DNA of 12,595 nucleotides, from contig JAKFXJ010000292.1 of assembly GCA_021731425.1 (NCBI GenBank), positions 1 through 12,595 of the forward strand, written 5' to 3'. The stretch comes from Limnohabitans sp. (GTDB taxonomy: Bacteria > Pseudomonadota > Gammaproteobacteria > Burkholderiales > Burkholderiaceae_C). The translations under genes and the position numbers were made by a program. The notes beneath the pieces are model-generated. The model did not search any database, was not told where the DNA came from, and saw nothing but the letters and a program-made list of their open reading frames with translations. Shown here in pieces: positions 1 through 12,447 of this stretch. How positions within the stretch are numbered: the first letter of the stretch is position 1; each line of letters opens with the position of its first letter.

Positions 1-1001
1 CCACCCGCTGCCACGGTGTGGATGCTCATCATGGGCGCACGCATGCGCACACCCGCCACCTGGGTTTCAAACTCGCGCTCAAACTGCCCGGCAAAGTGCG
101 ACACGTCGGTGGACGTGCCGCCCATGTCAAAACCAATCACCTTGTCGTGACCCGCCAACTGCGCGGTGCGGGCCATGCCCACAATGCCGCCCGCCGGGCC
201 ACTCAAAATCGCGTCCTTGCCCGCAAACACCTGCGCGTCCGTCAAGCCGCCCGAAGACTGCATGAACATCAGCTTCACACCCGGCATCTCGCTGGCCACT
301 TGGTCCACATAGCGCCCCAAAATCGGCGACAAGTACGCGTCCACCACGGTGGTGTCGCCCCGGCTGACCAGCTTCATCATGGGGCTGGTCTGGTGCGAGG
401 TGCTGACCTGGGTGAAACCCACCTCACGCGCCAGCCGCGCCGCCGCCAACTCGTGCGCCGTGTGCCGCCAGCCATGCATGAACACCACTGCCACCGAGCG
501 CACACCTTGTTGGTGCGCATCAACCAATTGGGTGCGCAAATGCACCTCGTCGAGCGGCAACAACACCTAACCGTCCACCGCCACGCGCTCCTGCGCCTCC
601 ACCACCGCGCTGTAGAGCAACTCGGGCAACACAATCTGGCGGTCAAACAAACGCGGGCGGTTTTGATACGCAATGCGCAGCGCGTCGCCAAAGCCTTGTG
701 TGGTCACCAGCAGCGTGGCTTCGCCCTTGCGCTCCAGCAGAGCGTTGGTGGCCACCGTGGTGCCCATCTTCACGCATTCGACTTGCTCGGGTGTGACCGG
801 CTCGCCGGACTTCAAGCCCAGCAAATGCCGAATGCCCGCCACCGCCGCATCGCGGTATTGCTCGGGGTTTTCAGAGAGCAGTTTGTGCGTGACCAAAGTG
901 CCGTCAGGCCGCTTGCCCACCACATCGGTGAAGGTGCCGCCCCGGTCGATCCAGAACTGCCAACGGTTTTTACCAGCGGGTGTGGTGTGGGATTCGGTCA
1001 T
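1..1001 (-). pseudogene. 5-oxoprolinase / hydantoinase-type N-terminal part, interrupted by in-frame TAG, truncated by window edge
   Basis: This is the N-terminal part of an ATP-dependent amide-ring hydrolase of the 5-oxoprolinase/N-methylhydantoinase A family, a cytosolic enzyme that opens 5-oxoproline- or hydantoin-like rings. The start is the ATG at 1001-999. The family motif DRGGTFTDVV lies at residues 19-28, and TTVATNALLERKG follows further on. A TAG at 569-567 (codon 145) stops the frame after ERVAVDG. The same frame then continues to the window edge for about 188 codons without another stop, giving VLLPLDEVHLRTQ, a HGWRHTAHE segment, a SSGGLTDA segment and the second-domain motif FDMGGTSTDVS. 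So this is one gene with one nonsense codon, not a frameshift. A GAG or CAG codon would become TAG by one base change. GTG directly follows the TAG, so re-initiation is possible. The style resembles the roughly 1200-residue single-chain oxoprolinases, but the rest is outside the window. The regulator gene lies 35 bp upstream on the same strand, so they are probably co-transcribed. Family is confident; substrate is unknown; whether it is dead or read through is open. Confidence 0.85.
567..569 (-). other. In-frame TAG codon inside the oxoprolinase-like gene
   Basis: Read on the minus strand the context is GAC GGT TAG GTG TTG TTG. Recognisable family sequence lies on both sides in the same frame. 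GAG (Glu) or CAG (Gln) would give this codon by one substitution. Confidence 0.85.
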
Positions 1002-6772: not shown

Positions 6773-7072
6773 TCACCCCCCACCGCGCTGCATCGTCAAA
6801 TCAAAACGCTTCATGAAGCGCTGACGCGCATCTTCTTGCACGCCCACAAACACAAAAGAGACGGCCAGCCGCTGCAAGCGCAGCAGCGCGATCACACGCG
6901 GAGGCAGGATGCGCCATTGCAGTTGCAGGTGGCCGTCACCGATGTGCACGCAAACTTGTCCTGTACCCAGCTCATAGGCGTGCTCGCCCAAGGCGCGGGG
7001 CAAGGCCGTCAGCCATTCGCCTTCGGTGGTGCCCATGTCGCGCTCGAAGCGCTCGGGGTAGTAGGACTGCAT
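6773..7072 (-). CDS. Small protein of unknown function at the end of the aor operon
   Basis: A 99-residue soluble protein with no cysteine cluster, signal peptide or membrane span. It starts MQSYYPERFERDMG and has a central GQVCVHIGDGHLQLQWRIL beta-rich stretch. A basic IALLRLQRLAVSFVFVGV and QRFMKRFDLTM end follow. I do not recognise a named domain. The ATG at 7072-7070 is 26 bp after the MoaD-like gene; a TTG at 7102 overlapping that gene's TGA is an alternative start that would add ten residues. A small extra gene after the MoaD-like gene is also known in other multi-subunit W-AOR operons (recalled, not checked). Its place argues for a role in cofactor insertion or assembly of the enzyme (inference). 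It ends with TGA, convergent to the acetyltransferase gene. Confidence 0.7.
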   Translation of the reverse strand: MQSYYPERFERDMGTTEGEWLTALPRALGEHAYELGTGQVCVHIGDGHLQLQWRILPPRVIALLRLQRLAVSFVFVGVQEDARQRFMKRFDLTMQRGGG

Positions 7073-7098: not shown

Positions 7099-7353
7099 TC
7101 AACCACCGGCCACGGGGGGCCAGATAGCGAGCACATCGCCTTCGACCAAGGTGGTGGTGCCCCGGTCTTCGGGTTTGATGTATTTGCCGTTGACCAGCAC
7201 CAGATGCACGAGCTTGGACGGCATGCCAAAAGGCTCGATGATCTGGCTGATGCTGGACTCCTGCGCCACATCCAGCGTGACCTGGTTGCTGCGCCGGGCT
7301 TCGGGGGGCAAGTAGTCGGTTAGCGTGGCAAACAGTTTGAAAGTGATGTTCAT
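7099..7353 (-). CDS. MoaD/ThiS-family sulfur carrier protein
   Basis: An 84-residue ubiquitin-fold protein. MoaD proteins carry a C-terminal thiocarboxylate that supplies the dithiolene sulfurs of molybdopterin, the organic part of the Mo and W cofactors. The sequence starts MNITFKLFATLTDYLPPEA, has LVLVNGKYIKPEDRGTTTL in the middle and ends GDVLAIWPPVAGG. The terminal Gly-Gly required for adenylation is present. No MoaE or MoeB homologue is visible here, so this copy probably works with enzymes encoded elsewhere or is dedicated to the tungsten cofactor of the adjacent oxidoreductase. It begins 15 bp after the aorC stop, so co-translation in the operon is likely. Stop is TGA. Confidence 0.88.
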   Translation of the reverse strand: MNITFKLFATLTDYLPPEARRSNQVTLDVAQESSISQIIEPFGMPSKLVHLVLVNGKYIKPEDRGTTTLVEGDVLAIWPPVAGG

Positions 7354-7368
7354 GCGCAGATTGTCGCT

Positions 7369-8709
7369 TCAGCGGCGGCGTGCGTCTTGCGCACCGCTCC
7401 ATCGCCCTTGGCCCTGTGCGCAATCGAGGTAAGCGTCCACCAGTTTGGTCGGGTCGTGCATCAGGCGGTCTTTCCAGTCGCCCAAGTGCACCTGGCCTTC
7501 GACCAGGCCACGCATCACGCCCACATGCTCAGTCCAGCCCACGCTGTTGCAACCGACCATCACATCGTCCTTGAACTGCAAGCTCAGGTGGCGACCCGCA
7601 GCCTTGTCGGTCAACACGGCCGATTGACCACCGGCCACGCCTTCCCAGTTGCCAAAACTGGTCGAGATCAAACCCAAGGTGTCGAGCACGTTGATTTGTG
7701 TGACGCCTTTGAGCTCGGTCTTTTGGCCCAGCATGTTGAGCGCGGCCACACGGGCCTGCTCGGCCGCGTTGGGCTGGATGGCGCTCACAATCGTTTTGCC
7801 GCTGACCATGTCAAACGCTTCAGCGCAGTCGCCAGCGGCATAAATGCCGGGCACATTGGTTTGCAGGTGCTGGTCGGTCAACACGCCTTGCAGGCAGGTG
7901 ATGCCGCTGTCCTTCAAAAAGCCAATCGCTGGGCGCACGCCCGTGGCGCTGATGACCAGATCGGCCTCGACGGTTTGGCCGTTGGACAAGCGGACCTGCA
8001 GCGGGCCACCCGCTTCGTCAGACCCCAAGCCCACCGCAGAAGCCAACTTGCCGAGCAAGCCTTTTTCAGCACCTTGGTTGATGGCTTCGACCTTGGTGCC
8101 GGTGAACACCTGCACGCCTTTGGCCTCGCACCAGTCGCGGATCATGCCGCCCGCCACCGGGCCCATCATGCGGGGCACCATGCGATCACCCATCTCGACC
8201 ACGCTGAGCTTGACGCCACGCGCGGCCAGCGCTTCCATGATGATGCAGCCAATGAAGCCTGCGCCCATCTGCAGCACACGGGCACCAGGCTTGGCCAGCG
8301 CCTGAATAGCGCGGGCGTCTTCCAACGTCCAGCACGGGTGCACGCCGGGCAAGTCCATGCCCGCAATCGGTGGGCGCACAGGGTGTGAGCCGGTCGCGAT
8401 CAACAACTTGTCAAAAGCCATCGACTGGCCGTTGTCCAGATGCACGGTTTTGCCTGCAGCGTCCACACGCGTCACCTTGGCCTTGACTTGCGTGATGCGC
8501 ATATCGTCAAAGTGGGTGGCGCTCTTGCGCAGGTAGGTGCCCTGCTCTTCAATGTTGCCGATCAGCAAATAAGGGATGGCCATGCGTGAATACGGCGCAT
8601 CGGGCTCGTCACCCACCAGGGTGATGGTGTCGGCGGGGGCGTGCTTGCGCAGGGTCTCGGCGGCGATGACACCGGCAGGGCCTGCGCCCAAGATGACGTG
8701 GTGGGTCAT
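7369..8709 (-). CDS. aorC: FAD/NAD(P)-dependent subunit of aldehyde oxidoreductase (AorC type)
   Basis: A 446-residue pyridine nucleotide-disulfide reductase-fold flavoprotein. It passes electrons between NAD(P) and the Fe-S subunit of the aldehyde oxidoreductase. The N-terminal FAD-binding GAGPAG is at residues 8-13, ATGSHP at 105-110, the second nucleotide-binding GAGFIG at 149-154, and the FAD ribityl motif GIYAAGDCAE at 288-297. No redox CxxxxC pair follows the first glycine motif, so it is a ferredoxin-reductase-like rather than a disulfide-reductase member. The ATG at 8709-8707 has GGAG (8721-8718) 8 bases upstream. A palindrome-rich spacer separates it from aorB. The MoaD-like gene follows after 15 bp. 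The role as AorC rests on gene order with aorA and aorB. Stop is TGA. Confidence 0.88.
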   Translation of the reverse strand: MTHHVILGAGPAGVIAAETLRKHAPADTITLVGDEPDAPYSRMAIPYLLIGNIEEQGTYLRKSATHFDDMRITQVKAKVTRVDAAGKTVHLDNGQSMAFDKLLIATGSHPVRPPIAGMDLPGVHPCWTLEDARAIQALAKPGARVLQMGAGFIGCIIMEALAARGVKLSVVEMGDRMVPRMMGPVAGGMIRDWCEAKGVQVFTGTKVEAINQGAEKGLLGKLASAVGLGSDEAGGPLQVRLSNGQTVEADLVISATGVRPAIGFLKDSGITCLQGVLTDQHLQTNVPGIYAAGDCAEAFDMVSGKTIVSAIQPNAAEQARVAALNMLGQKTELKGVTQINVLDTLGLISTSFGNWEGVAGGQSAVLTDKAAGRHLSLQFKDDVMVGCNSVGWTEHVGVMRGLVEGQVHLGDWKDRLMHDPTKLVDAYLDCAQGQGRWSGAQDARRR

Positions 8710-8730
8710 GAATCGGACTCCAGAAACAGG

Positions 8731-8813
8731 TAGCGGCCCGCAGGCCGCTTGGATTCCTGTAGAAGCGCACCCCTATGGTGAAGGCTTCACGAGCAGGCGC
8801 TCGCTCCTACAGG
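8731..8813. repeat. Nested palindromes, REP-like, between aorB and aorC
   Basis: AGCGGCC (8732-8738) pairs with GGCCGCT (8743-8749) around CGCA. Next, CCTGTAGAAGCG (8756-8767) pairs with CGCTCCTACAGG (8802-8813), 11 of 12 positions. Inside that outer stem are GTGAAG-G-CTTCAC (8778-8790) and CGAGC-AGGC-GCTCG (8790-8803). The CTGTAGGAGCGAGC style resembles bacterial REP elements. It may slow transcription or protect the upstream mRNA. No T-run follows, so it is not a classic terminator. Confidence 0.6.
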
Positions 8814-8820
8814 GGCAAGG

Positions 8821-9021
8821 TCACAAACCCAGACGTTCCCGGGTGGCCGATGTCGGACGGCCTTCGCCATCCCAGCCGCGGGCGTCGTAGTACTTGGGCA
8901 GCATTTCGTCCAACTTGCTGACCATGCCTTTGCCGGGGCCGGTTTTAGCGGCTTCGTTCATCAGGCGTTTAGGCAGGTTGTCGTCGGCTTTGGTGAAACC
9001 AGCAGCGTTATTGAAGTCGCG
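8821..9021 (-). other. Conserved C-terminal tail of aorB beyond the in-frame TAG
   Basis: Sixty-six sense codons and TGA follow the TAG at 9024-9022 in the same frame. They contain the family patterns FNNAAGFTKADDNLPKRL and LPKYYDARGWDGEG. The aorB start is far upstream and no ribosome site precedes this tail, so it is not an independent gene. Confidence 0.85.
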
Positions 9022-10668
9022 CTACATGTTCCAGATGCGCTCGCCAATGTGGTTCAAGTGCTCCATGGTGAACTCTTCGCCGCAAGCGGCTTGCACCTGA
9101 GGGGCCACGTCAGCCAAGGTCCAGGCAAAGCTGGTGAACACGCAAATACCGGCCGAGTCAAAGGCAGCTGTCGCGTCTTGGAAGGCCTTGACCAATTCAG
9201 GCTTGCCTTCGTGCTCGGTGGGCTCGGTCTTGACCGGGATGCCCAGCACTTCAGACGCGATGGTGTAGCCGCGCAGGTGGCAAGCACCACGGTTGGACGT
9301 GGCGTAAGCCAAGCCAATGCCTTGGATCACACGACCGTCATAGGCGGGGAACTCTTGGCCTTTGACGCTCATGGACAGGTCGGGGTGGCCGTATTTGGCG
9401 GTCAGGCGCTTGGAGCCCATGCCAATTTCCTTGCCAAAACCGATGCCCTTGGCGGTCATGTCGACAAACTCGCACAGCGCTTCGGCCGAGCCAAACGGGG
9501 CTTCCACACCGATTTGCTCTTTGGTCAGCACGCCCATTTCATAGAGCTCCATGACGGCACCGATGGTGGCACCGAAGCTGATCGGGTCAAAGCCTTCTTC
9601 GTTGCAGATCATGTTGGCATACTGCAGGGCTTCCAAGTCTTTCACGCCGTTGGCTGCGCCCAGCGCCCAAGCTGCTTCGTATTCCAAGCCGCCGTTGGCG
9701 CCCCAGTACTCAGGCTTGTTCTTGACCGAGAAGTGGCCCTCGTCCATCTTGCTGATGCGGCCGCAAGCAATGGTGCAACCAAAACAGGCTTGGTTGGTCA
9801 CCAGGTGCTTTTTGCCATCGGTCTCGCGGGGCGTGACCATGGCTTCAGCCGAGATGTCTTTGGCGCTTTCAAACTGCACGTCGCGGTGGTTGCGTGTGGG
9901 CAAGCCCCCCACTTCGTTGATCACGTTCATCAGCACCTGGGTGCCGTAAGCGGGCAAGCCCTGGCCCGTGACCGCGTTGTCGGCCAACACCTTTTTGGCG
10001 GCCTTGGCCGCAGCCATGAACGCCTTGGGGTCTTTCATGTTGCCCACGCCCTTGGTGCCGCGCACCGCGATGGCTTTGAGGTTCTTGCTGCCCATGACGG
10101 TGCCCACGCCCGAGCGGCCAGCCGCGCGGTGCAAGTCGTTCACCACGGCGGCATAGAGCACGCCGTTTTCACCGGCTTTGCCGATGCTGCAAACGCGCAG
10201 CAAGGGGTCTTGCAAGCTGGACTTGAGGATTTCCTCGGTCTTCCAGACACTTTGGCCCCAGAGGTGGCTCGCATCACGCAACTCGGCTTCGTCGTCGTTG
10301 ATGTGCAGGTACACAGGCTTGGGCGAAGCGCCTTCAAAAATGACCATGTCCCAACCGGCCATTTTGAGCTCAGCGCCCCAATAGCCACCCGAGTTGGAGC
10401 AAGCGATTGCACCGGTAAGCGGGCTCTTGGTGATGACAGTGTAGCGGCCGCCTGTGGAGGCCATGGTGCCAGTCAGTGGGCCGGTGGCCCAGACGATTTT
10501 GTTGTCAGCCGACAGGGGGTCGACTTTGGGGTCGATCTCGCTGATCAGGTATTTGCTTCCCAGACCGCGCGAACCCAGGTAGGCTTTGGCCCACTCCATG
10601 TTCAGAGGTTCGGATTTGACGGTGCCAGCCGTGAGGTTGACGCGGAGAATTTTTCCAGCCCAAGACAT
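8821..10668 (-). CDS. aorB: Tungsten-type aldehyde oxidoreductase catalytic subunit, interrupted by in-frame TAG
   Basis: The large subunit of a tungsten aldehyde ferredoxin oxidoreductase-family enzyme. It oxidises aldehydes to acids at a W-bis-pterin site and can run in reverse with low-potential electrons. The ATG at 10668-10666 has AGGAG (10680-10676) 7 bases upstream. Residues 1-200 contain LGSRGLGSKY, ATGPLTGT, GRSGVGTVMGSKNLKAI (184-200) and other pterin-binding stretches. The [4Fe-4S] ligands are C295, C298, C302 and C509 (in DSAGIC). E329 and H464 sit near positions known as active-site residues in the archaeal enzymes. A TAG at 9024-9022 ends the frame at residue 548, right after GERIWNM. 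The same frame then reads RDFNNAAGFTKADD, SKLDEMLPKYYDARGW and ERLGL before TGA at 8823-8821, the normal family C-terminus. With one residue at the TAG it would be 615 residues, the usual length. GAG (Glu) is the likely ancestral codon. Confidence 0.9.
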
Positions 10669-10691: not shown

Positions 10692-11168
10692 TTAAGAGGC
10701 CGAGGGCTGATTGCCCAACTTGTCGGCCCACTGCTTCATTTTGTCGATGCCGGTCCAGTTGGCGTCCACGAATGTGATGGCGCCAGTTGGGCAGGCGTCG
10801 GCGCAAGCCGGATCGCCACCGCACAGGTCGCACTTTTGCACCTTACCGGTCTCTTGCACATAGTTGATCGTGCCGAATGGGCAGGCAATGGTGCAGACCT
10901 TGCAGCCCACGCAGGTGGACTCGTTGACCACTTTGGCGCCGGTGGCTTTGTCCACGGTGATGGCCTCCACTGGGCAGGCATGCAGACACCAAGCCTCGTC
11001 GCACTGGGTGCAGGTGTAGGGCACTTTTTTGCCAGTGTGGTGGAAGTCGAACACCTTGATGCGGGATTTGGAGGTGGCGTATGTGCCGTAGTTCTCGAAA
11101 GAACAGGCCATTTCGCACTGCAAGCAGCCGGTACATTTGTCCGGATTGATGTGCAGGACTTTCTGCAT
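10692..11168 (-). CDS. aorA: Fe-S electron-transfer subunit of aldehyde oxidoreductase (AorA type, four-cluster ferredoxin)
   Basis: A 158-residue cytosolic ferredoxin-like protein of the HycB/DmsB type. Sixteen cysteines form four [4Fe-4S] ligand sets: CTGCLQCEMAC at 12-22, CTQCDEAWCLHACP at 53-66, CVGCKVCTIACP at 86-97 and CDLCGGDPACADACP at 113-127. These would carry electrons between the catalytic AorB subunit and the flavin subunit. The ATG at 11168-11166 has a strong AGGAG 7 bases upstream; an upstream ATG at 11219 lacks one and its extra residues are not ferredoxin-like. It is the first gene of the operon and is 23 bp before aorB. No twin-arginine signal is present, so the complex is cytoplasmic. 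Stop is TAA. Confidence 0.9.
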   Translation of the reverse strand: MQKVLHINPDKCTGCLQCEMACSFENYGTYATSKSRIKVFDFHHTGKKVPYTCTQCDEAWCLHACPVEAITVDKATGAKVVNESTCVGCKVCTIACPFGTINYVQETGKVQKCDLCGGDPACADACPTGAITFVDANWTGIDKMKQWADKLGNQPSAS

Positions 11169-11322: not shown

Positions 11323-12447
11323 ATGCCCCTGACCGCCCACCACAGCGACCGCTTGCAGCGGATTGAACAAGCCCGTGACCTGGTGTTTCAGGGGCGATCC
11401 GAGGCACAGGCCAGCGGCGTGTCCCCTTGGATTGCCCAGTCCTGGCAGCGCTGCCTGTCCATGGGCCTGCAGCCGGGCCAGGCGGTGGGTTTTGACGCCA
11501 TCTCAGCCCAGCACATGCGCCGCGTGCAAGAAGCCAGCCGCCCCCTGGTGCAAGCGGCCCAGCCCGTGCTGGCCGAGCTGGCTCGGGCTATTGCCGATAT
11601 TCGATATTTCGCCATCCTGACCAATGCCCAAGGCATCGTGGTCGACGTGCATGGCCCGGTGGACCGGCAAGACCGCCGTGCCGAGGTGATTGCCCGTGTG
11701 GGCGTAGACCTGTCTGAAAAAGCCGTAGGCACCACGGCGATCAGCGCTGCCCTGACCGAATTGCAGCCGGTGTGGTTGCACCGAGGCGAGCACTTTTTTC
11801 AGGACACAGGGATCTACAGCTGCGCCGGGGCACCCGTGTTTGGCCCGGATGGCCTGTGCGCTGGCATGCTGGACCTGACGGGCATCGAAACCACCGAGCG
11901 CCCAGCCCTCAAACACCTGGTGCGCCGCTCGGCCCGCAGCATCGAAAACAGCTGGCTGCTGTCCACCGACCATGCGTTGGTGCTGCGCCTGAATTGGCCC
12001 GGCAACCAGCCCGGTGACGACAGCGATGGGCTGATCACACTCGACCACAACGGACAGATCGTGGGGGCCAACCCCACGGCGCGGCAAATGCTGTCCATGT
12101 CACCGGGAAGCGACGGGCAAACGCAGCACGTCAGCGAAGTGTTCGCCTCGCCCTGGGAAAACCTGTTCGACGCGGCCAGCCGCCAAGCCAGTGCGCAAGA
12201 GTTGCCGCTGTGGTCTGGCCTGCGTTTACAAACACAAGCTTTGCGCCCGGGTGCCCGCCCAGCAGCCGCCCACAGCGCGAAGACTTCAGAACGTGCACAG
12301 GCGATGGCCAAACCCCTCAAGGATGTGCAGACGGACATGATCCGAGAAGCCGTCCAACAAGCGCGTGGCAACGTCGCCGAAGCCGCACGCAGCCTGGGCA
12401 TCAGCCGCGCCACGGTTTACCGCAAACTCGGCTTGCCCAAAAGCTGA
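11323..12447 (+). CDS. GAF/PAS/Fis-type HTH transcriptional regulator lacking a sigma-54 AAA+ domain
   Basis: A 374-residue cytosolic regulator related to AcoR-type activators. Residues 1-75 contain SPWIAQSWQRCLSMGLQP, the usual AcoR-like start. A GAF sensor domain follows at about 75-210 with GTTAISAAL (136-144), RGEHFFQ and CAGAPVFGPDGLCAGMLDLTG (167-187). A PAS-like segment DGLITLDHNGQIVGAN lies at 235-250. The end, 335-372, is a Fis/HTH_8 helix-turn-helix with ARGNVAEAARSLGISRATVY. The central AAA+ ATPase with GAFTGA and Walker motifs, present in typical relatives, is absent. The protein therefore cannot act as a standard sigma-54 activator and may work as a repressor or sigma-70 regulator (inference). 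It is divergent from aorA and likely senses an aldehyde-pathway or metal signal. The ATG at 11323 has no strong Shine-Dalgarno. Stop TGA is part of a hairpin shared with the next gene. Confidence 0.85.
   Translation: MPLTAHHSDRLQRIEQARDLVFQGRSEAQASGVSPWIAQSWQRCLSMGLQPGQAVGFDAISAQHMRRVQEASRPLVQAAQPVLAELARAIADIRYFAILTNAQGIVVDVHGPVDRQDRRAEVIARVGVDLSEKAVGTTAISAALTELQPVWLHRGEHFFQDTGIYSCAGAPVFGPDGLCAGMLDLTGIETTERPALKHLVRRSARSIENSWLLSTDHALVLRLNWPGNQPGDDSDGLITLDHNGQIVGANPTARQMLSMSPGSDGQTQHVSEVFASPWENLFDAASRQASAQELPLWSGLRLQTQALRPGARPAAAHSAKTSERAQAMAKPLKDVQTDMIREAVQQARGNVAEAARSLGISRATVYRKLGLPKS

Follow-up and report, generated by a model that had tools for sequence, protein, structure and literature searches.

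An in-frame TAG codon in the aorB gene of a draft Limnohabitans genome is probably a consensus or damage error

The aor operon of Aromatoleum aromaticum is described, in the part of PMC6365974 that was available, as an ordered set of genes that includes aorA, aorB, aorC and a gene for a MoaD-like protein, and the residues that serve as Fe-S ligands in the A. aromaticum enzyme are named in the available part of PMC10413684. Conserved genes with an in-frame TAG are a feature of stop-codon reassignment or amber suppression, which are described for some phages. G:C>T:A changes that arise from oxidised guanine are a signature of library damage. Here we analysed a stretch of DNA (henceforth referred to as the window) that spans contig 45 from end to end (12,595 bases) in a fragmented Limnohabitans-type MAG (405 contigs, 2,815,623 bases, 82% complete). 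On its minus strand the window contains, in a single run and as in A. aromaticum EbN1, aorA (10692..11168; polyferredoxin-like subunit with Fer4 domains, in the same operon place as its A. aromaticum counterpart), aorB (8821..10668; catalytic subunit of a tungsten aldehyde oxidoreductase, with Pfam AFOR_N and AFOR_C domains and chain 8c0z_A as the closest solved structure), aorC (7369..8709; FAD/NAD-binding subunit with a Pyr_redox_2 domain) and aorD (7099..7353; MoaD-like protein with Ub-Mut7C and ThiS domains). The polyferredoxin, AFOR and FAD subunits of a bacterial AorABC enzyme are all encoded. A 99-aa open frame (6773..7072, minus strand) is possibly aorE, an identity suggested by its position alone, and a divergent gene on the plus strand (11323..12447) encodes a regulator with GAF and Fis-type HTH domains (Pfam GAF and HTH_8). 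Our literature search for work on tungsten and aldehydes in Limnohabitans found none in the collection searched.

The aorB frame starts with an ATG at position 10668 of the minus strand, runs for 548 codons to a TAG at 9024-9022 (codon 549), continues for 66 uninterrupted codons and closes with a TGA that ends at 8821. The TAG is the sole break in the frame, and because of it the complete C-terminal domain of a bacterial AorABC catalytic subunit does not lie in a single open frame in the present record. Since the positions of the Pfam AFOR_C profile continue across the stop (3-318 on its 5' side and 320-385 on its 3' side), a frameshift, considered as a candidate explanation, was ruled out. 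These results bear out an earlier note on this DNA, made from the sequence alone, according to which the TAG closes aorB 66 codons before the TGA at 8821 and the total of 615 residues is the usual family length: among the best 120 of 8000 homologues, 117 are 615 aa long and the others 606, 609 and 616 aa. Our search of a protein database clustered at 90% identity returned long homologues only, and it cannot decide on truncated copies because such clustering could conceal a shortened one. No second copy of aorB was found in the same genome when the 82%-complete MAG was searched. The alignment with AorB of A. aromaticum EbN1 (AORAa, PDB 8c0z) is gapless over residues 1-548 and 550-615, and Cys295, Cys298, Cys302 and Cys509 align one-to-one with the Fe-S ligands of that enzyme; as the earlier note had also claimed, all four are N-terminal to the stop. 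If the stop is real, AorB would lack its last 67 residues and retain the four Fe-S ligands. The stretch lost on the 3' side of the TAG is conserved in the four solved AORs that we compared.

At codon 549 every relative examined encodes Glu. The codon is GAG in all 29 same-genus loci that were fetched (out of 43 relatives with the C-terminal tail) and in 30/30 of the nearest named loci; among the best 80 of 518 named loci, a set that overlaps with the same-genus one, the residue is Glu in all 80 (77 GAG and 3 GAA) and the aligned part of aorB contains no stop. Glu is also found at the equivalent position in the four solved structures compared, among them 1aor of P. furiosus and 8c0z of AORAa, which thus differs from the present record in having Glu549 where the record has a stop. 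Whereas the earlier note, which had proposed this alignment, derived the TAG by a one-base change from either GAG or CAG, the relatives carry GAG (Glu), and so the G-to-T origin from GAG holds and the origin from CAG does not. Two loci with short open frames (L030 and L031), which seemed at first sight to be further broken copies of aorB, were rejected as such: they sit at contig ends and their codon at this position is GAG. Separately, a public record titled as an Akkermansia muciniphila MAG (HRSG-E13-bin-26) contains a Limnohabitans-like aorB with 99% protein identity, and its title therefore looks wrong.

A coding-potential scan of 61 contigs of the MAG (906,837 of 2,815,623 bases) yielded 59 stop-bridged frames, 44 of which were left after a shadow-frame filter. 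Six of these 44, that of aorB included, were taken, on visual inspection, as stops that interrupt genes, and the remainder were read as gene junctions between neighbours in the same frame. The second in the window is a TAG at 567..569 (minus strand) in a hydantoinase/5-oxoprolinase-like gene that the end of the contig truncates (3-1001); at this site 29 relatives have 26 Glu, 2 Asp and 1 Lys. The other four, in genes whose names were read from their translations, are minus-strand stops elsewhere in the MAG: a TAG in trpC (L137:1901, contig C47; Ser in 29/29 relatives), a TAG in an acyl-CoA dehydrogenase gene (L149:5492, C59; 27 of the 29 loci supplied could be aligned, and these have Ser), a TAG in a cupredoxin-like gene (L098:15009, C7; 12 of the 29 loci supplied could be aligned, 11 with Glu and one with a gap) and a TAA in an rfbA-like gene (L135:9587, C44; Glu in 29/29 relatives). 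Glu is thus replaced at four sites (the hydantoinase-like site being mostly Glu) and Ser at two. In all six cases, both the most frequent codon among the relatives and the codon of the nearest relative specify Glu or Ser and would become the stop by a single G:C>T:A change. The aorB stop is therefore private among the relatives examined, one base from a conserved codon, and part of a set of six stops that are all of the G:C>T:A class.

This uniformity is not expected from the way in which the genus otherwise varies. In the six genes the other genomes have 449 private changes, which are mostly C>T/G>A (204/449) and include only 62/449 of the G:C>T:A class, so that six of six G:C>T:A stops would be unlikely if they were genuine nonsense mutations. 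With this genus spectrum and codon use, the expected share of G:C>T:A among nonsense changes is 0.22, and with flat weights it is 0.34, which gives p values for 6/6 of 1.1e-4 and 1.5e-3, respectively; for the four stops outside the window (4/4) the corresponding values are 0.002 and 0.013. The six stops also stand apart from the eight further changes that only this genome shows in columns of these genes that are invariant elsewhere, since all eight are at third codon positions (in this scoring five of the six stop sites are invariant, the hydantoinase column being variable, and the dehydrogenase and cupredoxin-like genes are represented by 24/29 and 9/29 loci). A direction test against another genome of the comparison, G009, showed the same tendency: G:C>T:A changes numbered 351 towards the present genome and 293 in the opposite direction (p 0.025), while transitions were balanced. 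This signal is weak, and the class is one of several that were examined. By number, the stops are not clearly unusual: control genomes scanned likewise gave comparable frames in smaller samples (18 stop-bridged frames in 400 kb of G009 and 9 in 153 kb of G047) and, on our reading of the scan, one possible in-frame stop, namely a TAA codon that would interrupt an RfbB-like gene in the complete genome G009. It is the spectrum, and not the count, that is unusual. Direct comparison with the frames of G009 showed seven stops in this genome, six of which were rejected because they read as 5' of true starts, and only that in aorB was taken as real; the comparison with G047 gave three stops, two of them in the present genome and one in G047; each is a change of CGA to TGA close to the start of a frame, and all three were likewise read as 5' of true starts.

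We consider that the aorB TAG is a consensus or oxidative-damage-type error in a draft MAG, with a probability of roughly 60%. This reading fits best because of the bias of the stops towards a single class, the privacy of each of them and the conservation around them, and same-class substitutions, which resemble the changes known from oxidised guanine, occur elsewhere in the assembly as well. The organism would then have an ordinary 615-residue aorB gene with Glu549, encoding the predicted W-cofactor subunit of an NAD-linked AorABC aldehyde oxidoreductase, and the TAG would be due to an incorrect consensus base, of the G:C-to-T:A class, one of several in a low-quality MAG. On this view the six stops would have come about in the reads, through guanine oxidation or miscalling, and not in living cells. 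Any such error must be rare, since private changes are not generally in excess in the aor genes of this genome (5 across 3,921 columns, compared with 1-19 in the 29 relatives). Overall, the observation made in the earlier note was confirmed and its interpretation was supported in part, the sequencing error that it had left open being the likeliest option.

A tentative alternative, to which we give the smaller but still appreciable share of the probability, is that the TAG is a real and very recent nonsense mutation, that the strain or a part of the population is without AorB activity, and that the other five stops could be due to a G:C>T:A mutation bias of the lineage. Of 90 genomes of the genus (the present one included), 44 encode the 66-residue aorB tail, as do 33 of the 56 near-complete ones; the operon is therefore patchy, other Limnohabitans lack it, and as it is dispensable in the genus a genuine loss of AorB would be tolerated and a recent nonsense allele is conceivable. 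Per base, stops are not demonstrably more numerous here than in the G009 and G047 controls, and the one candidate in 400 kb of G009 indicates that true nonsense alleles may occur at about this rate. The age of the stop would also be compatible with such an allele. Among the nearest named relatives, Limnohabitans sp. Bal53 (L304) is separated from this aorB by 65 synonymous and 5 nonsynonymous codon differences on the 5' side of the stop and by 11 and 0 on its 3' side; for a second one (L302), the respective figures are 63 and 1 on the 5' side and 7 and 2 on the 3' side. Because the differences are nearly all synonymous on both sides of the stop, the entire 615-codon frame has been under purifying selection until very recently, which fits a stop too young for its tail to have decayed. 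Judged from these codon differences, the stop would be either younger than almost every other change in the gene or absent from the cell. Against a nonsense allele, besides the spectrum, stands the inclusion in the set of genes that read as trpC and rfbA. The GO repair system protects against GC to TA mutations (PMC11078426, in the part available). In this genome mutY and mutM score above the cut-off and are without internal stops. These genes, intact in outline, would argue mildly against a mutator, although point defects are possible.

Readthrough of the TAG, or its recoding as Glu, by which full-length AorB would be made, had been raised in the earlier note, and we regard it as very improbable. 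The coding-like sequence that extends beyond the stop, the conservation of the tail and the presence of the second TAG of the contig at a likewise mostly-Glu position are what such decoding would predict. However, the search for a suppressor tRNA that the same note had suggested gave a negative result, in that none of the 31 tRNAs found in the 82%-complete MAG (all read by ARAGORN) has a CUA anticodon, and the best match to PylS scored 27 bits against a cut-off of 178. TAG also serves as an ordinary terminator, ending 31 of 565 coding-like frames (27 without the four in-frame stops); no single residue is replaced, as Ser codons are hit by two of the six stops; one stop of the set is a TAA; and the aorB stop is present in none of the best 80 of 518 relatives. 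RNA 3' of the aorB stop folds no better than shuffled sequences (z 0.70). The case is therefore unlike reassignment or amber suppression as described for some phages, with no suppressor tRNA found, an unconserved stop, mixed residues and TAG in use as a terminator. There is an equally slim chance that the lineage underwent a real burst of G:C>T:A nonsense mutations, for example because an enzyme that repairs oxidised guanine carries a point defect. AorB, TrpC and other proteins would then be shortened in living cells, and a tRNA encoded in the missing fifth of the genome would restore part of their synthesis by suppressing the stops at a low level.

Elsewhere in the operon, the spacer between aorB and aorC (window positions 8710-8820, minus strand) contains strong RNA hairpins (z -3.49). 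Directly 5' of aorC, the seven pairs of an AGCGGCC...GGCCGCT stem are kept in 24/24 aligned sequences (the window and 23 of 30 loci, including 8 with a differing upstream part), and in these 24 sequences no pair was found to be changed on both sides. A longer stem with GTAGGAGCGAGC occurs as one full copy in 907 kb of this MAG and as one in 400 kb of G009. As judged from its position and folding, the spacer hairpin might lower the expression of aorC relative to that of aorA and aorB, and a reduced expression of aorC would suit the Aor(AB)nC filament described in the available part of PMC10413684.

The TAG in aorB most likely carries no information on the translation of the gene, and the biology of AOR is unchanged by it, the relatives having a normal 615-residue AorB. 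When a catalytic gene of a draft genome appears to be split, the substitution spectrum of the other in-frame stops of that genome can account for the break, and examining this spectrum is a simple check that can be made before recoding or a pseudogene is claimed.
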